From NCBI GenBank assembly GCA_030041305.1, contig JASHOC010000235.1:1-64000 (forward strand): 64,000 bases of DNA, in the 5' to 3' direction. Below the pieces are notes generated by a model. The model had not been told where the DNA came from and searched no databases. It worked only from the letters and a program-made list of their open reading frames with translations. Position 1 is the first letter of the stretch. The number at the start of each line of letters is the position of its first letter. This stretch comes from Acidobacteriaceae bacterium. Lineage in GTDB: Bacteria > Acidobacteriota > Terriglobia > Terriglobales > Acidobacteriaceae. Of the stretch, positions 3,609 through 46,719 are shown piece by piece. Made by a program: the position numbers and the translations under genes.

Positions 3609-3947
3609 CTATCGGGACACCGCGAGAAAACGCGACATCGTTGCCGCAATGCGTTCCCAGTTTTCCGTTTCCGCTCCAATTTGTTTTTTCCCAAGGCGGC
3701 TGAGTGAGTAGTATTTGGCGCGGCGGTTGTTCTCTGAAGTTCCCCACTCTGCCTTGATATAGCCCCGCTGTTGCAGACGGAGAAGTGCGGGGTAGATTGT
3801 TCCCTGATTGAGGCTAAGAGTTGCATCGCTGACCTGTTCAATGCGGCGCGCGATGCCGTAGCCGTGTAATGGACCCATCGATTCGAGTGTTTTCAGCACC
3901 ATCAGGTCCAGGGTTCCTTGAAGAACATCCGATTTGCTCTCTGCCAT
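3609..3947 (-). CDS. PadR family transcriptional regulator
   Basis: MAESKSDVLQGTLDLMVLKTLESMGPLHGYGIARRIEQ; start placed at the internal Met of the 149-aa ORF. Confidence 0.9.
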   Translation of the reverse strand: MAESKSDVLQGTLDLMVLKTLESMGPLHGYGIARRIEQVSDATLSLNQGTIYPALLRLQQRGYIKAEWGTSENNRRAKYYSLSRLGKKQIGAETENWERIAATMSRFLAVSR

Positions 3948-4153
3948 ATTTCTTCCTGTTGCATTTCTACATAAGTTTGCCACCCGCTTCGGTAGAATGT
4001 CAACAGGGGAATGGCCGCTCTCCATCGCTGGATGAGTCCGTCGGGAAAGCTTTCTCAACGAACTTCAGTGGTTGTAGGATGGAGTCCCAAGTGCGGCGTA
4101 ATGCCGATGTGCATCTGGGGAATCCCACGCGAATTCGCGAAGAAGTCTGGACC

Positions 4154-6592
4154 ATGAACAGCATTCCGGGACTGAACACTTTGGGGCGAGACCTACGCCA
4201 CACTTCAAGGCAGCTTGTGCGCAGCCCCTGGTATACGCTGACGGCAGTCCTGATTTTGGGAATCGGGATCGGGTCAATCACCGCGATTTTCAGTGTGCTA
4301 GACGCGGTGCTCTTTGAGCCGCTTCCGTTTGCACATCCCCGCAGGCTCATCGCCATTCGTTCCGTGCCGAGCGAGACCGCATCGATCCCCACGATTGAGG
4401 ACTGGCAGCGCCGGAGCATCAGCTTTCAATCACTGGCCGCGTATCGGGGTTGGTCTCCGGAGGTTCGTACGCCCCTGGGGTCCGGCGGCGACGTTCTTGA
4501 AGTGTCGCAGAATTTCTTTTCCACGCTGGGCGCATCTTTTGCGGTCGGCCATGACTTCATCCAGACCGGCGACGAGCGCGATTGTCCCGAGCAGGCCATT
4601 CTGAGCGGGGGATTTTGGAAACAGTTGGGCGGCGGCCAGGATCTCGACGGGCGATCTCTCCAAATCGACCATCGAACGTTTCGGATCGTCGGCGTGCTGC
4701 CTTTGGCGCAAGACATCGAGGGGACTTACGCGCTTGATCATCCGGACATCTTTGTTCCCATCGGCTGCGACGCCAACTCCAGAGTTAACGAGCGAGGAGA
4801 CAATGACTTTTGGGTTCTTGGTCGGCTGCGGCCGGGCGTGTCGATCAAAAGCGCCGCCGCTGACTTGGCTCACGTCGAAGCGAATCTGCTTAGGGACTAC
4901 CCGAACTCCTACGGCGGCGTCAATGGACGTCCTCCCTTGCTGATCCCTTGGCTGACGGTGCTTACCGGCACCGCGACAGGTCCGGCATTGCTGACCGCTT
5001 TCGGCGCGTGCGGGCTGTTGCTTCTCCTCGCCTGCGCCAACTTGGCCAACTTGATGCTCGCGCGAAATGTCCGCCGCCGTCAGGAATTTGCTGTGCGGGC
5101 CGTCCTCGGCGCAGGTGCTCGGCAACTCCTCCGTCAAATGCTCATCGAGAATGGTGTTTTGGTGCTAATGGGCTCGTTTATGGGCTTGCTCCTGGCGAAC
5201 GGAGCGCTTAATCTCCTGCGCAATGCGCGGACCATACAAATACCGCGCCTCGAACACGCATCCATCAACCTCCCGGCTGTGGCGTTCGCCGTCTGCGCCG
5301 CAATGGTAGTCGCGCTGATCCTGACGCTTCTACCAGCGACGCGAACCCTGCGCCCCAGTTTGCTTGAGGACCTCGCGGGCCACAGTCGCGCATCGGAAAC
5401 AGGCAGTCTCCGCCGCATCGGAAGGACTCTGGTAGCGGCGCAGATCGCCTTTTCGATCATGCTTGTGGCTTGTGCGTCGTGGATGGTCGCCGGAATCTAC
5501 ACGCTTCTGAATCAGTCACTGGGTTTCAACCCCGATCATCTCCTTATGGTGGGGGTGGATATTGAACACAGTAGCGCACTGCCCACCTACAATGCTGCTC
5601 GAGCGTCCGCGTACTATGGTCAGCTTGTCGCCGCGTTACGCTCGCTCCCCAGCGTTACAGGCGTCGCTGCGGCGAAGGATCCGCCGCTTGGCGGCGCTGT
5701 CAATCGCTACACTTTCTGCTCCGATACGCACCCGGACGAGTGCAGACATCCTGCGATGGTAAATCCCGACTCGTTCGATATCACGACGGGTTATTTCGCC
5801 ACCGTGCAACAGCCCCTGCTGGAAGGCCGCAATTTTACCGCCAACGACGACGTGGGGCCGCCCGTAGTCGTTGTGAATCAAGTGCTTGCGAACCGCGAAT
5901 GGCCGGGACAGAGCGCAGTCGGACATCGCGTTAAGACGGGCGAACTGGACGGATGGGCTACGGTCATCGGCGTGGTCGGGAACGTGCGTAGCTTTAGTCT
6001 CGATGTCTCTCCAGGAGCGGACCTCTACCTGCCAATGTCCTACCGGCCCCCCACCCACATGGTCCTCCTGCTTCGTACACGAAGCGATGCGGCGGCCCTA
6101 GCGAAAACTGTCCGACACCTGGTCCATACCCAGCATCCCGATTTGCTGTTGTACCACGTGCGCACGATGCGCGAGGAGATGGGCGACGAGGTGGAATTTC
6201 GGGGCTTTCTCATGCAGATCGCTATCGTTTATGGAGCCTTGTCACTCTCGCTCGCCATTTTGGGCGTTTACGGACTGCTGGCCTACGAGATTTCTCTTCG
6301 CCGGAAGGAGATTGGGATCCGTGTCGCGCTCGGCTCCTCGCAGGCATCGGTCGTGCGGCTGCTGCTTCTCCAGGAATCACGCTGGGTGATTGGCGGAGCC
6401 ATGGTTGGCCTCGTTGCTGCGATGATCTGTGGCTATGCGCTGCGGGCACAAATCTACGGGCTGACTGCAAATTCCGCAGCAGTTTTGAGCATCTCCTTCA
6501 TGTCATTGGTGCTCCCGGCGCTGGTTGCGATAGCGGTACCGGCATGGCAGGTTGTCGTCGGTAACCCGTTAGGTGCGTTGCACACGGAATAG
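4154..6592 (+). CDS. ADOP family ABC transporter permease
   Basis: MNSIPGLNTLGRDLRHTSRQLVRSPWYTLTAVLILGIGIGSITAIFSVLDAVL; FtsX domains; divergent from the PadR gene. Confidence 0.9.
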   Translation: MNSIPGLNTLGRDLRHTSRQLVRSPWYTLTAVLILGIGIGSITAIFSVLDAVLFEPLPFAHPRRLIAIRSVPSETASIPTIEDWQRRSISFQSLAAYRGWSPEVRTPLGSGGDVLEVSQNFFSTLGASFAVGHDFIQTGDERDCPEQAILSGGFWKQLGGGQDLDGRSLQIDHRTFRIVGVLPLAQDIEGTYALDHPDIFVPIGCDANSRVNERGDNDFWVLGRLRPGVSIKSAAADLAHVEANLLRDYPNSYGGVNGRPPLLIPWLTVLTGTATGPALLTAFGACGLLLLLACANLANLMLARNVRRRQEFAVRAVLGAGARQLLRQMLIENGVLVLMGSFMGLLLANGALNLLRNARTIQIPRLEHASINLPAVAFAVCAAMVVALILTLLPATRTLRPSLLEDLAGHSRASETGSLRRIGRTLVAAQIAFSIMLVACASWMVAGIYTLLNQSLGFNPDHLLMVGVDIEHSSALPTYNAARASAYYGQLVAALRSLPSVTGVAAAKDPPLGGAVNRYTFCSDTHPDECRHPAMVNPDSFDITTGYFATVQQPLLEGRNFTANDDVGPPVVVVNQVLANREWPGQSAVGHRVKTGELDGWATVIGVVGNVRSFSLDVSPGADLYLPMSYRPPTHMVLLLRTRSDAAALAKTVRHLVHTQHPDLLLYHVRTMREEMGDEVEFRGFLMQIAIVYGALSLSLAILGVYGLLAYEISLRRKEIGIRVALGSSQASVVRLLLLQESRWVIGGAMVGLVAAMICGYALRAQIYGLTANSAAVLSISFMSLVLPALVAIAVPAWQVVVGNPLGALHTE

Positions 6593-7065: not shown

Positions 7066-9693
7066 ATGCGATGGTGGCGGATCGGAAAACGGGACGCTGA
7101 CCTGGAGCGAGAGTTGAGTTCCGACCTGGAGTCGGAAGAAGAAAGGCAGCGCGAACGCGGCCTGCCGCCGGAACGGGCCCGTTACGCCGTGCGCCGTGCA
7201 TTCGGGAACGTCATGCTGATTCGAGAGAAGATGCATGAAGCATGGGTTTGGGCGGCGTTTGAACGTTTGCAGCAGGACCTGGGTTACGCATTACGGCAGT
7301 TGCGGAGGTCCCCAGGTTTTGCGTCCGTCTGTCTCATGACGCTTGCCCTCGGCATCGGAGCGAACACGGCGATGTTCAGCGTGGTGCAAGGGGTAATTCT
7401 TGCGCCCCTGCCGTTTCCGCAAGCCAATCGCCTCATCTTTCTTTGGGAGAAGCGCCCCGGTGTTCCTCGACTCGATGTCTCGTACCCGAATTTCAATGAC
7501 TGGGGGCGCACGTCACGGTCATTCGATGGCATGTCTGGACTGATATTTAACGACTTCGATTTGACCGCTCCGGGAAACGCCGAGCACCTTATCGGCGTAG
7601 AGGCTTCCTCCGGACTTTTGAAAACCTTGGGTGCCAAGCCGATCCTTGGACGGGATTTCGACCCATCGGAGGACCAAGCGAATGCTTCGAATGTTGTCCT
7701 GATCAGCGAACGCCTCTGGAGAGAGCGGTTTCGGTCAGACCCGAGCGTGCTTGGGAGATTCGTTGACTTGGATGGAAAGACCTTCACCGTCATCGGCGTG
7801 CTACCGCCTGACTTTCATTTCCTGATCAGTGCGGACGTTATGGTGCCCCTGCGTCCCAATATGCCCGTTATTCTTGACGACCGTTCAGTGGAAGCATTGA
7901 CCGTGGTGGCGCGCCTCAAACCGGGCGTGATGGCTGCCCAGGCCGAGGCCGCGTTGAATGTGATTCAGCAGGGGCTCGACCGTCAGTATCCCGACGCCAA
8001 CCGCAGCATCGGCGTTACGGCGACTTCGCTGATGGAGGGAGTCGTCGGCGACGCGAAGGGAACGATCGTGTTGTTGTTTGGGGCTGTTAGCCTGGTGCTC
8101 CTAATCGCGTGCGCCAATCTCGCCAACTTGCTGTTGGCGCGCTCCGCTGCCCGTGCCCGCGAATTCGGCATCCGCGCGGCGCTCGGAGCCAGTTGCGGAC
8201 GAATGGTGCGGCAACTGCTCACCGAAAGTATCATGCTGTCGCTCGCGGGCGGAGCATTGGGCGTTGTGCTCGCCGCCCTCGGCCTTCGCGTTCTACTGGT
8301 GGCGCTGCCGAACACTTTGCCGCGCTCCGGAAACATCGGCCTTCACCTGCCGGTTCTTGTGTTCACAGTAGCGGCTTCTGTCACTGTGGGGGTTCTTTTC
8401 GGCCTCGCTCCGGCAATGCAATGGGCAAATCCCGATGTGCGTAGTGCCTTGCAAACGGGATCGAGGGGAACCACAACCGGCCGGAATCGCCTGCTCAACC
8501 GTCTGGTCACGGTGCAATTTGCGCTCACTCTCGTGCTGATGGCGGGCGCAGGGCTACTCCTGCGCAGCGTCCGCAATCTATGGCATGTAAATCCCGGCTT
8601 CAATATGCGGCACGTGATTTCGTTCCAAGTTGGTTTGTCCCCCTCATTTACGACTTCACCAGCTCGAACGCGCGTGGCCTACCAACAATTGCTTGCGCGC
8701 ATTGGTCAACTACCGGGAGTGGAAGCAGCCGATCTCACCAATATCGTTCCGCTCGACGGAGCCGCCAATGGCGGCCCGTTCTGGATCGGTACGGCGCAAC
8801 CAGCCTCGCTTCAGGAACTTCCTCACGCGCTGTACTTTTGGACCGGTCCCGATTATCTGAGGACGATGCAGATTCCCTTGCTGCGAGGCCGGTTCTTCAC
8901 GCCGGACGATCGGATCGGCTCCGGCAAGGTGGTCGTCATCGACAGCGTGCTTGCACACACCTTCTTCGCCAATCAGGATCCGGTGGGGCGGACGCTTACG
9001 GTCGCGCATTGGGGAGCGGCTCGGATCGTCGGCGTGGTGGGACATGTGCGCAATTTTGGACTGGACGACCCTGGAGCCTACCTTCCGCAGCAGATTTACA
9101 TCCCCGCGTATGAACTGCCGGATTACATGGTCGCTGACTTCTTCCGCACTCTCACCGTGATTGTTCGTTCGACGATTCCCCCTGCGGACCTAATGCCTGC
9201 CATTCGGAGAGTCGTATACGAGTCTGCGCCCGATCAACCGGTATACAACGCCGCGACGATCGATCAGATAGTGTCTGAATCAATGGCATCGCGGAACTTT
9301 TCCATTCTGCTTCTCGGCATCTTCGCCGCATTGGCACTGCTGCTGTCCTCGGTCGGCATCTATGGAGTCGTGTCTTATTCGGTCCTGCGACGTACGCAGG
9401 AGATCGGTATCCGCCTGGCTCTCGGAGCCGATAAGAGCCGGGTCTTCCGCATGATCGTCGGCGAGGGAATTTGGATGTCTGGCGTCGGATTGGCGGTCGG
9501 CATTTTGGCCGCAGTTGCGCTTGTGCGCCTGTTGCCGAGTTTCTCTCATCTGCTGTACGGCGTAGGCCGGAGCGATCCGCTCACGCTATGCGTCGTCACC
9601 GTTGCGTTACTACTCGTCGCTTTTGCAGCTAGTTATCTTCCTGCACGCCGAGCCATGCGCACCGACCCGCTCAACTCCTTGCGCTGCGAATGA
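7066..9693 (+). CDS. ADOP family ABC transporter permease
   Basis: MRWWRIGKRDADLERELSSDLESEEERQRERGLPPERARYAVRRAFGN plus MacB/FtsX domains; a longer TTG start at 6973 is possible. Confidence 0.9.
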   Translation: MRWWRIGKRDADLERELSSDLESEEERQRERGLPPERARYAVRRAFGNVMLIREKMHEAWVWAAFERLQQDLGYALRQLRRSPGFASVCLMTLALGIGANTAMFSVVQGVILAPLPFPQANRLIFLWEKRPGVPRLDVSYPNFNDWGRTSRSFDGMSGLIFNDFDLTAPGNAEHLIGVEASSGLLKTLGAKPILGRDFDPSEDQANASNVVLISERLWRERFRSDPSVLGRFVDLDGKTFTVIGVLPPDFHFLISADVMVPLRPNMPVILDDRSVEALTVVARLKPGVMAAQAEAALNVIQQGLDRQYPDANRSIGVTATSLMEGVVGDAKGTIVLLFGAVSLVLLIACANLANLLLARSAARAREFGIRAALGASCGRMVRQLLTESIMLSLAGGALGVVLAALGLRVLLVALPNTLPRSGNIGLHLPVLVFTVAASVTVGVLFGLAPAMQWANPDVRSALQTGSRGTTTGRNRLLNRLVTVQFALTLVLMAGAGLLLRSVRNLWHVNPGFNMRHVISFQVGLSPSFTTSPARTRVAYQQLLARIGQLPGVEAADLTNIVPLDGAANGGPFWIGTAQPASLQELPHALYFWTGPDYLRTMQIPLLRGRFFTPDDRIGSGKVVVIDSVLAHTFFANQDPVGRTLTVAHWGAARIVGVVGHVRNFGLDDPGAYLPQQIYIPAYELPDYMVADFFRTLTVIVRSTIPPADLMPAIRRVVYESAPDQPVYNAATIDQIVSESMASRNFSILLLGIFAALALLLSSVGIYGVVSYSVLRRTQEIGIRLALGADKSRVFRMIVGEGIWMSGVGLAVGILAAVALVRLLPSFSHLLYGVGRSDPLTLCVVTVALLLVAFAASYLPARRAMRTDPLNSLRCE

Positions 9694-37715: not shown

Positions 37716-38230
37716 TTAGGCACAGGCCCAAGCCGCCGAGAGCACCTCGGCCTGTTTCAATACAATCTCGGTAGCCTCCTCCTGCTTGTCTGGCGGGTAC
37801 TTGCACTTCTTCAAGATCGTCTTCACCATGATTCGAAGTCGGGCACGCACCGACCCCGGCACGGACCAATCCACGGTGACGCTCTTGCGAAGCTTTTCCG
37901 TAAGCTCCAGAGCGATCTTCCGCAGGATTTCGTCCCCAAGCTCCCGTACCGAAACGTTATTGCTTGCCAGGGCATAGTAGAACGCCACCTCCTCGGGCTT
38001 CAATCCTAACTACTCACCTCGCTCCCCCACATCCCGGAACTGCTTGGCCATGGCAATCAATTCCTCAATATCGTAGAACCAGTCGGCGGGCACGAGGCAT
38101 CGGCGGCGCTTCATGGATTCCCGAAATGCTGGGCTTGTGGTGATGGTCTCGGCCTTGGCGTTGACGGTGTTGAACGCCGCCTTGCCATCCTTCGACCAGA
38201 ACGGACACTGTTGGCGAAATCGATCAACGC
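37716..38230 (-). pseudogene. Chimeric remnant: SRAP (YedK/HMCES-like) fragment joined to the HsdR C-terminal region
   Basis: FWSKDGKAAFNTVNAKAETITTSPAFRESMKRRRCLVPADWFY (SRAP) runs into IEELIAMAKQFRDVGERGE*LGLKPEEVAFYYALASNNVSVRELGDEILRKIALELTEKLRKSVTVDW (HsdR-type) with an in-frame TAG. Confidence 0.75.
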
Positions 38231-42903: not shown

Positions 42904-43509
42904 CTACCGCTGGAATACGAGAGACACTACGGAACTGCCAGGCGGGATTTGGACGTCGCGAACCTCATCAATAATCCCGCAGCCAGCGGCAAATGCAGCG
43001 TCTTTGGTTTGGGCTTCCAAGAAGAGCTTGGAAATGTCTTCTCTGGGGAGCCGAGTTCTTTCCTCAATCACAGCGCCGATACGTTTTTGGTCGCTAGCGA
43101 TCCCATCTAGTCGTTCGCGGAGGAACTTCTCTTCTAGGCGCGTTTGCGCTGGAACGTCGAAGCCCACTCCGTGAAACATGAACGTGGAATGCGGACAGGC
43201 AAAGCGATGCTGTCCCGCAAGAAAAACCGCGTTGCCTATGGAGTCCACATTCCCGACGTTATGGGTAGTGAGTTCAACTGGCAACGCGCGCATGACGTTG
43301 TAGATGTTCATGCCGTGCATAACCGAACCCCCAGGAGTGGATAGCATCAAGTAGATTTGCTTCACTCCCTGATTGACGAGGTTGGTTACGGTAGCAATGA
43401 GGCTTTCAGTTGTGTGGGGAACGATTTCCGCCGAGAAGCAGACATAAACCAAATTCGGCGGGGCCTGCATAGCTGGGTTAGGTCTGAACATGACTTGGGG
43501 TTGGTTCAT
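42904..43509 (-). CDS. ClpP-like (SDH-family) protease
   Basis: IYLMLSTPGGSVMHGMNIYNVMRALPVELTTHNVGNVDSIGNAVFLAG...PHSTFMFHGV: GxxxS and H motifs. Confidence 0.85.
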   Translation of the reverse strand: MNQPQVMFRPNPAMQAPPNLVYVCFSAEIVPHTTESLIATVTNLVNQGVKQIYLMLSTPGGSVMHGMNIYNVMRALPVELTTHNVGNVDSIGNAVFLAGQHRFACPHSTFMFHGVGFDVPAQTRLEEKFLRERLDGIASDQKRIGAVIEERTRLPREDISKLFLEAQTKDAAFAAGCGIIDEVRDVQIPPGSSVVSLVFQR

Positions 43510-43571
43510 AAGGTTTGTTCGTCCTGTGCGTGCTTTGTCGGCACGCGCATGTTTAACGGCATTCGACGGAG

Positions 43572-43662
43572 CGGAGAGATAGGGAGTCGAACCCCTAGCG
43601 CTGACACGCTAGCCGTAGGAGCTTATAAGGCCCCTGCCAGAACCTTCCGGCGGTATCTCTCC
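43572..43662 (-). tRNA. Candidate 9/3 allo-tRNA, long variable arm, anticodon UAU, G73, no encoded CCA
   Basis: GGAGAGATA/TATCTCTCC (9 bp); D stem GCC/GGC; GGGGC-CTTATAA-GCTCC; variable stem CTAGCG/CGCTAG; GGG-TTCGACT-CCC. Confidence 0.82.
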
Positions 43663-43666
43663 AAAT

Positions 43667-43690
43667 CGCCCCCGTCGCAAGCCGGGGGCG
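43667..43690. other. Perfect 8-bp GC hairpin immediately 5' of the tRNA
   Basis: CGCCCCCG-N8-CGGGGGCG. Confidence 0.7.
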
Positions 43691-43720
43691 GCCAGAGTGG
43701 GTGGTGCGATTGCTCACCAT

Positions 43721-43763
43721 GACCCGCGTCGCGCGTCTCTTTGCCGGGGATGCGGCGCGGGTC
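43721..43763. other. Long GC-rich inverted repeat upstream of the tRNA
   Basis: GACCCGCGTCGC / GCGGCGCGGGTC, 11 of 12 pairs. Confidence 0.6.
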
Positions 43764-43867
43764 TTCTGGTTATGGCTACTGCACGGCGAACAAGGTGCAG
43801 ATCGCTACGCGTGTATCTTCATAGTGCACATTTCTACAAAGGCACACTCTTCCTCGGCTTGACTATT

Positions 43868-44788: not shown

Positions 44789-45520
44789 TTACAGCCGCCC
44801 AGGCAGCCGGGGCAGCCGAATCGGATTCTTCGCGCTGGTGGGGTCGCTCAAGTAGAGGTTGTGCACGGCCCAGGGCGTGACACAAGCGGCGTCGGCGATA
44901 AGCCAGACCTCAGCGAGGCGGTGATGACCACGCCGCCCCAGATAGCGCGCGGCGAAGTAATCGAGGGTGACAGCGCCGCCCTCGACTGCAACGAGCGCCG
45001 GGGTGTGATCCGCTACCGCCTCTGGCAGTAGCAACTCGTGGCCGTAATGGTGAGTGATAAACCAGCGGGTGGAGTAGGTATCGAGCCCCCGCGCCCCGGC
45101 ATCGCCAGCGGACAGCGCCCAATCGATCTTTGGGAGGTGATGAGGTTGGGGTGCGGGTGGAAGCGTCTGACCATGCATGACCTTGACGGAGAGCACCGCG
45201 AACAGGAGCAGGCAGGCGCGCACCAGCGGATAGATCGGCCAAAAGGCTTTCTTCGGGCGTGGCCTGTACTTCACCATGGGGCGGCAGAGTGGGTGCTTGA
45301 TGACCGGTGCGGTAAGGCTGAGCGGGCAGAGATACGACTGCCCGTTCTGCTCGTAGAGGGTCCACTTCGTGGGGTTATCACGCCCGGCATCGATCAGCTT
45401 CGTCAGGACGATGCCCTTGGAGCGCCATTCCAGTTGTGGGGCTTCGCCGTTGCTGCCCCAACAAAGGATGTAGTCCGCGTTAAGGTCGATGATTTGCTGG
45501 ATGAGGTGAGCGTTGGTCAT
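44789..45520 (-). CDS. Hypothetical protein translationally coupled to the integrase
   Basis: MTNAHLIQQIIDLNADYILCWGSNGEAPQ...; ATGA overlap with the integrase stop; one TM segment. Confidence 0.6.
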   Translation of the reverse strand: MTNAHLIQQIIDLNADYILCWGSNGEAPQLEWRSKGIVLTKLIDAGRDNPTKWTLYEQNGQSYLCPLSLTAPVIKHPLCRPMVKYRPRPKKAFWPIYPLVRACLLLFAVLSVKVMHGQTLPPAPQPHHLPKIDWALSAGDAGARGLDTYSTRWFITHHYGHELLLPEAVADHTPALVAVEGGAVTLDYFAARYLGRRGHHRLAEVWLIADAACVTPWAVHNLYLSDPTSAKNPIRLPRLPGRL

Positions 45521-46719
45521 GCCGCCACCCCCGTCGCCGTCGTCGCCGCGAAGGTCCGGTTGACCATCTGCTGGGCTTGCGCTCCACGCGCGGGCCGGAG
45601 GTAGCGCATCGTGCTGCGCAGGTCCTTTGGGGAATGCCCAAGCCAGCGGCCCACGGTCGGGACATCGACCCCGGCCCAAAGATGCCAAGTGGCAAAAGTG
45701 GCACGGAATTCATGGAGCCAGAAGTCGTCGGGGTTGAGCCCGGCGTCCTTCGCCCGCGCCTTCAACAGCGTCAGGAAATCATCCTTTGGCTGACCTTCCG
45801 GGGTGGGAAAGAGCAACGGGCAGCCCGGCAGGGCATTCGCCCTGGCAGCCCGGAGGGATGCAGCGAGACAAGCCGGAATCGGAATCTGGCGGCCCTTGTA
45901 CCTTTTCGGTGTCCAGTTGTATGCAGTCTTGGCTGAGACCTTGACCGTGGGCTCAGCGCCGAGGTCCAAGTCTGACCAATAGGTATGCACGACCTCTTGG
46001 AAGCGCATCCCGGTCATCAGAAAAAACTCGAAGTAAAGCCGCTCCTGGGCGTCGCATACGGCGAACAGCTTGTCGAGGTCTCCCTGCTCGTAAACCTCCG
46101 GGTCTTCTTCGGTGAACTTCGGCCAGTCCTGCGGCTTGACTCCGGTCTGGACCCCGACCGCCTTCCAAAAAATCATCAGGTTCAGGAATTGGTTGGCCAC
46201 CGTGCGGTCACCAACGCCCTTCTCGCGACGGACATAGGCGGTGAACTTGAGCATGTCCGACCGGTCGATTTCCTCAAGGAAACTCTTCTTGCAGGACTCC
46301 TCGAAGTAGCGGAGGGCAATGGAGTAAGCCGCGTACGTGGACTTCTTTTTGGTAAGCTTGATTTCGTCCAGGTAGGCTGTAACGGCGTCGGAGATGGGCC
46401 GCCCGGTCGGGACGGTGGCGGCGACGGGCTGCGCGAGGGCAATACCCTCGGCCTCGGCTTGGAGGCGAAGTTCAAGCCTGCGCTTTGCGGCGGTAGCCTC
46501 CTCCGGCTCGGTGGAGATCCGCTGCAAGACGCGCCTCTTGCCGTTGCCGGGGTTATAGGTGAGGTAGAAGACCGCAGGGTCGAAATGATGGGGCTCGCCG
46601 TCGAGGATCGCGCAGGACTTTTTGAGTTTGCCGTTTTTGGCGATGACGGGTTTGAGGTAGGTGCGCTTCCCATTTGGAAGACGGACCCAGACGTATAAGG
46701 CCACTTTCGGGGGTTTCAT
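45517..46719 (-). CDS. Tyrosine recombinase / phage integrase
   Basis: FEFFLMTGMRFQEV, LHEFRATFATWHLWAGVDVPTVGRWLGHS, TMRYL (R..HxxR..H..Y). Confidence 0.93.
   Translation of the reverse strand: MKPPKVALYVWVRLPNGKRTYLKPVIAKNGKLKKSCAILDGEPHHFDPAVFYLTYNPGNGKRRVLQRISTEPEEATAAKRRLELRLQAEAEGIALAQPVAATVPTGRPISDAVTAYLDEIKLTKKKSTYAAYSIALRYFEESCKKSFLEEIDRSDMLKFTAYVRREKGVGDRTVANQFLNLMIFWKAVGVQTGVKPQDWPKFTEEDPEVYEQGDLDKLFAVCDAQERLYFEFFLMTGMRFQEVVHTYWSDLDLGAEPTVKVSAKTAYNWTPKRYKGRQIPIPACLAASLRAARANALPGCPLLFPTPEGQPKDDFLTLLKARAKDAGLNPDDFWLHEFRATFATWHLWAGVDVPTVGRWLGHSPKDLRSTMRYLRPARGAQAQQMVNRTFAATTATGVAA

Follow-up and report, generated by a model that had tools for sequence, protein, structure and literature searches.

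The sole tRNA that ARAGORN reports in the 64-kb stretch of Acidobacteriaceae DNA analysed here (hereafter the window) is tRNA-Ile(UAU), at 43571-43662(-), and it lies directly upstream of a gene for a ClpP-like protein. The 62-nt spacing and common strand of tRNA and gene, like the small hairpin between them, had been reported in an initial annotation and were borne out by the sequence. That annotation overlooked a structured leader of ~160 nt directly upstream of the tRNA (43664-43826). The features, in 5' to 3' order on the minus strand, are:

43805..43822 (-): mini-ORF ATG AAG ATA CAC GCG TAG (MKIHA*), with a rare AUA at codon 3, read from the sequence.
43713..43809 (-): pseudoknot RNA core of hairpin P0, helix P2 and a P0 loop (TTCGCC in the window) pairing with GGTGAG, from covariance model (CM) R3 and covariation.
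43667..43690 (-): hairpin P3, CGCCCCCG-GCTTGCGA-CGGGGGCG, with an invariant loop and a stem that covaries between the window and locus L046.
43572..43662 (-): predicted allo-tRNA(UAU), with a 9/3 acceptor branch, type II variable arm, G73 and no encoded CCA.
43528..43546 (-): small hairpin GCGTGC-N7-GCACGC in the interval between tRNA and ClpP-like gene, read from the sequence.
42904..43509 (-): gene for a ClpP-like serine protease, occupying the variable cargo slot (P2), from Pfam CLP_protease and AlphaFold.

A tyrosine integrase is encoded 2 kb upstream of the tRNA (45517-46719(-)), and the region may be an integrated island. A 95-aa C-terminal piece of a type I restriction enzyme subunit lies at 37716-38003(-).

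The tRNA had been described as unusual, which our folding made more exact. Its acceptor stem has 9 bp (GGAGAGATA paired with TATCTCTCC) and its T stem 3 bp; the D stem (6 bp) closes a 4-nt D loop, the variable arm has 7 bp, and UAU sits in a canonical CUUAUAA anticodon loop. The fold is stable for its composition (MFE -44.6 kcal/mol; z = -3.1; 0 of 200 shuffles equally stable). The sole Rfam match was tRNA-Sec, an identity that we ruled out on the score (45.8 bits, under the 47-bit cut-off) and on the UAU rather than UCA anticodon. Allo-tRNAs are told by a 12-bp acceptor branch arranged as 8/4 or 9/3 and by G73 and a long variable arm combined with a non-Ser anticodon, all of which the window tRNA displays in its 9/3 form. 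In allo-tRNAs, serine identity resides in G73 together with the long variable arm, and the anticodon is not read by SerRS (PMC7609411). We add the window tRNA to the allo-tRNA family with a predicted serine identity.

The gene at 42904-43509(-) encodes 201 amino acids that match Pfam CLP_protease (E = 1.4e-19), and its AlphaFold model (pLDDT 90) has ClpP1 as top PDB match (TM 0.80/0.88). The protein thus resembles ClpP (PF00574) in fold and in the Ser and His motifs picked out by the initial annotation, and Ser90 and His113 are invariant across 29 relatives. That description needs one correction, as the catalytic Asp is not conserved and is replaced by Gly or Asn in two more divergent family relatives that were read. 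The protein further differs from ClpP in being mobile and in falling below every NCBIfam ClpP cut-off (50 bits vs 249), and the first reading saw no Clp ATPase near the gene. Score and catalytic residues together rule out a canonical ClpP. A prophage head maturation protease was also ruled out (41.7 vs 120 bits), and we found no recurring structural genes beside the ClpP relatives, which likewise argues against that identity. Relatives of the window subfamily occur in many phyla and on viral contigs. They often adjoin IS1- or IS1595-type transposases in several phyla (L050, L051, L055, L059, L066, L011, L020 and L053), which suggests a possible general passenger role. On one viral contig (L011, 3667-3766), a Leu-like tRNA, apparently with anticodon AGG, stands directly before an IS1595-type transposase and a ClpP relative.

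The initial annotation proposed a tRNA-protease module and made its occurrence in another genome the check. The pair does recur: among ~40 inspected ClpP relatives, a tRNA was found beside the gene in the window and in L046 only (Acidobacteriaceae bacterium palsa_340; the same locus as in G562), and none was found at five further relatives from a search of 398 same-family genomes. In L046, an 8/4 tRNA-UAU with G73 precedes by ~80 nt a ClpP that is 67% identical to that of the window; the tRNA sequence itself has strongly diverged, with UAU and G73 kept. Its anticodon loop, CCUAUAC (5864-5870), has C at position 33 rather than the near-universal U33. The locus is a complete 3.3-kb IS1-type transposon enclosing transposase, tRNA and ClpP, bounded by terminal repeats (3879-3910 and 7151-7182) whose first 15 nt are identical and by a 6-bp target duplication, ACGGCG. 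Because the pair lies inside this transposon, tRNA and protease gene move as a unit, but rarely. A dedicated module as a general unit was nevertheless rejected, since nearly all ClpP relatives were read without a tRNA and since the same leader and tRNA precede unrelated genes. ClpP is not a constant part of the arrangement but merely one of its exchangeable downstream genes.

Alignment of the window with L046 revealed a conserved block of ~165 nt before the tRNA, for which RNAalifold gave 31 pairs, 8 with compensatory changes and none broken. From this block we built a covariance model (R1), and from 14 of its homologues a second (R3). R1 matched 16 of 398 family genomes and R3 17 of 399 class genomes; in a sample of the phylum, 3 of 199 genomes matched. 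The samples overlap, and the weakest matches may be false. The R3 matches in the class include other families, and one phylum genome lies outside the class. In total, the covariance searches placed the leader RNA at about 28 genomic places. R3 scored the window core at 71.9 bits (E 4e-14), the window being one of its 14 training sequences. Comparison of the leader with 4227 Rfam families gave no match, and exact-pattern scans of IMG/VR found nothing. When the 5' motif was run against class genomes with mismatches allowed, matches other than the window stayed at chance level; the covariance model succeeded.

The core forms a pseudoknot, in which GGTGAG, located past helix P2, pairs with the loop of P0 (CTCACC or a variant of it). 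Across 25 sequences, 92.6% of cells were paired and 25 of 28 pairs had changes on both sides, with a covariation score of 0.584 vs ≤0.10 in slid-partner controls; this alignment was fitted to the model, and shared ancestry inflates the counts. An independent MAFFT alignment of 14 sequences, not fitted to structure, agreed (89.9% paired; 14 pairs). The pseudoknot helix lies outside the model, and 4 of its 6 pairs showed double changes (for example CTCACC/GGTGAG, GTCACC/GGTGAC, ATCACC/GGTGAT and CCTACC/GGTAGG).

Of 27 loci analysed, 25 have a start codon (ATG, once GTG) at a distance of 11-17 nt upstream of the core, often preceded by an AGGAGG-like sequence. A habit of rare codons in the mini-ORF that follows is shared by 24 of the 25 homologous loci that have this start. 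Within codons 2-6, 48 of 116 were AUA, AGA, AGG, UUA or CUA, where the same positions of long neighbouring genes predict 4.3. Arginine was written AGA or AGG in 26 of 28 cases (10% background) and isoleucine AUA in 15 of 17 (9% in neighbouring genes); since these loci share ancestry, P values for this bias overstate independence. Translated, the mini-ORFs give MxRRVxA... or MK[IL]x[AT]-stop. Some open with ATG ATA AGA AGA or ATG AGG AGG, and the mini-ORFs of the window and L046 are both ATG AAG ATA CAC GCR TAG, with the AUA identical. Among 16 loci with an upstream partner gene, the stop codon of that gene overlaps the mini-ORF start as ATGA in seven, which we read as a sign of translational coupling. 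Different lineages place different codons (AUA, AGA AGA, AGG AGG or UUA) in the same mini-ORF position. The bias may also arise from a constraint on the RNA sequence itself and not on its codons. AUA was present in the mini-ORF of 11 of 15 loci with a UAU tRNA and in none of 7 without a tRNA (Fisher P = 0.004, confounded with lineage); the mini-ORFs of the other four UAU-tRNA loci contain AGA, UUA or CUA.

The core is followed by a UAU tRNA-like gene at 16 loci, every one of them from the family to which the window belongs; where measured, the anticodon loop lies 42-83 nt 3' of the core. All 16 have UAU and G73, and 15 have an 8/4 or 9/3 branch. Seven, about half, carry C55 in the T loop and may be non-functional in translation, and one copy has lost its D and anticodon arms. 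In L144, a 13-nt copy of a transposon end (ATGATTATGCACT; ~4300-4312) sits directly 3' of the tRNA, as if the tRNA had once closed an inner element. At two loci from two families, L141 (leader 4069-4166) and L172 (near 2508), the tRNA behind the leader is of type II and has a UGG (Pro) anticodon, a putative second class of cassette. Leaders outside the window's family mostly lack a tRNA and often a downstream partner gene. Other tRNA loci occur in the window's own genome. An IS1595 element on G000:C351 (L095, 6523-6701(-); repeats near 4838 and 7888) contains a 7/5 serine-type UAU tRNA without a pseudoknot leader and, before it, a tRNA-like gene whose anticodon loop is expanded. On G000:C263 (L096, 2365-2449(+)), a Leu-like tRNA (A73) with a UUA (ochre) anticodon lies beside an integrase fragment.

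Genes upstream of the leader, where present, are DUF5343 or winged-helix-like. The downstream gene varies: it encodes ClpP in the window and L046, Trypsin_2 in L133 and, by similar appearance, in L163, a Beta_protein in L140 (PD-Lambda-2 C match at 2e-49), weakly PBECR2-like putative RNases in L134 and L139, and a protein that is RelE-like by eye in L145. In L138 and L144, it belongs to a 280-aa family of no known kin that also occurs in L095, the host's own element. These kinds of genes lend indirect support to a possible link with defence. IS1595 transposase genes and matching terminal repeats flank the cassette in ten loci (L133-L135, L138-L140, L144, L163, L166 and L167), and L143 has the terminal repeats alone. 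Transposase plus terminal repeats, the mark of IS1595/IS1 passengers, are thus present in many homologues and in L046; in the window, we recognised neither a transposase nor terminal repeats of the IS1595 or L046 type, nor a partner gene upstream.

These results start from observed parts in an observed order, with covariation, codon bias, exchangeable downstream genes and transposon ends around many copies. We tentatively favour a reading in which the window tRNA forms the 3' portion of an RNA cassette carried by transposons, whose rare-codon leader gates an exchangeable effector while the UAU tRNA tunes the stall. The cassette would run from rare-codon mini-ORF through pseudoknot and allo-tRNA(UAU) of serine identity to the effector gene, which is ClpP-like in the window. 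Ribosomes would enter the mini-ORF, whose AUG overlaps the upstream stop in the seven loci above. Should tRNAs for AUA or AGR be scarce, for example when an invader has drained or destroyed host tRNAs, ribosomes would then stall beside the pseudoknot, or rare tRNAs would be trapped as in CreT-type mini-ORFs. Either event would alter expression of the downstream effector, and the cassette's UAU tRNA, by reading AUA, would relieve or tune the stall. The initial annotation had offered, besides its module, a tRNA-like leader controlling the protease mRNA; the idea of an RNA leader fits better, but the controlling element is probably the mini-ORF and pseudoknot upstream of the tRNA. Counted against the gated-leader reading are the window's lone rare codon, weak Shine-Dalgarno sequence and missing partner gene, the four UAU-tRNA loci without AUA, the seven C55 tRNAs, and the mostly tRNA-less leaders outside the family.

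Very short ORFs containing AUA are known from the bar-type AUG-AUA minigenes of phage lambda, which resemble the mini-ORF in this respect and differ in having no structured RNA, tRNA of their own or effector. Closer in anatomy are the CreT toxins, in which an efficient start leads into a pair of adjacent rare codons (AGA AGA or AUA AUA) followed by a stem-loop, and which sequester a rare tRNA until relieved by extra cognate tRNA (PMC8501985). The leader likewise has a start codon and early AUA or AGA/AGG codons before a stable structure, here the pseudoknot; the rare codons are consecutive in many homologues (ATA AGA AGA, AGG AGG), whereas the window offers a single AUA. CreT toxins are repressed by CreA, an RNA derived from CRISPR; the likeness of the cassette to them is one of sequence anatomy. 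This anatomy, the co-occurrence of AUA with the UAU tRNA, and the relief of CreT toxicity by cognate tRNA would all suit an RNA toxin whose leader sequesters rare AUA/AGR tRNAs and whose antidote is the UAU tRNA, an addiction module stabilising the transposon with the downstream gene as plain cargo. We consider that account unlikely: AGA/AGG trapping could not be relieved by a UAU tRNA in the loci that have it, some mini-ORFs (window, L046) offer a single rare codon, the tRNA would insert Ser, and the pseudoknot is conserved far above the need of a mere stabilising hairpin. The leader shares the CreT recipe but adds a conserved pseudoknot, an AUA-reading tRNA and an effector gene, all carried on a transposon, and we therefore favour rare-codon gating.

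Somewhat less likely still is a missense weapon, in which the Ser-charged tRNA mistranslates AUA, rare in a GC-rich host and common in AT-rich invaders, and the leader sets only the dose. It would explain why UAU and G73 are invariant in 16 loci, it suits the 9% share of AUA among Ile codons in neighbouring genes, and Silvibacterium allo-tRNAs did insert Ser in E. coli (PMC7609411); yet UAU-group tRNAs with destabilised stems are reported to have failed in E. coli translation (PMC7609411), and roughly half of the tRNAs at our loci carry C55. It is very improbable that the tRNA turns AUA into a Ser codon within genes of the element itself. AUA accounts for 5 of 22 and 5 of 18 Ile codons in two transposase genes, above its use in host genes, but the AUA at codon 91 of the window ClpP encodes a residue that is Ile in >90% of 29 relatives, which disfavours recoding, and AUA positions differ between the two tRNA-linked ClpP genes. 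Ranked below the missense weapon is the view that tRNA, leader and protease gene are chance neighbours, independent debris of mobile elements. The window, with its integrase and without recognisable transposase or terminal repeats, might look so, but order and spacing are the same in L046 and, as far as leader and tRNA go, in 14 further loci, and covariation is strong. Recurrence and covariation refute chance for the association of leader and tRNA; for a link to ClpP function, chance may still be the explanation.

To our knowledge, UAU-anticodon allo-tRNAs have had no established natural role so far. Their group was described by Mukai et al. 2017, as reviewed in PMC7609411, which describes a UAU pseudogene overlapping a transposon as well as irregular tRNAs in polycistrons and does not mention a mini-ORF/pseudoknot leader, an IS1595/IS1 passenger architecture, or an effector or protease gene. 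With passenger-gene transposons, the cassette shares an IS1595 (NF033547) or IS1-type transposase, terminal repeats and cargo between them; the difference is that the cargo here is an RNA cassette with a tRNA. Judged by sequence, and with the allo-tRNA literature compared through that review, the cassette as a whole matches no known system against which we tested it.

In our analysis, UAU allo-tRNAs appear to form a constant part of a defined transposon-borne RNA cassette, and since its leader often holds the very codon they read, experiments can address their role directly. The leader itself, which spans more than one class of the Acidobacteria phylum, is a previously undescribed RNA that combines rare-codon mini-ORFs with a pseudoknot, and the exchangeable downstream genes provide a handle for finding new defence-like effectors. 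Possibly, though we hold it more doubtful than the gating itself, the whole is a mobile conflict cassette, in which the mini-ORF and pseudoknot would sense or trap AUA/AGR tRNAs, the cassette's own serine-type UAU tRNA would answer AUA, and a plug-in effector (protease, RNase or defence protein) would be released when rare-codon decoding fails, for example under phage attack. If the mechanism holds true, it would represent a new way of sensing decoding failure.
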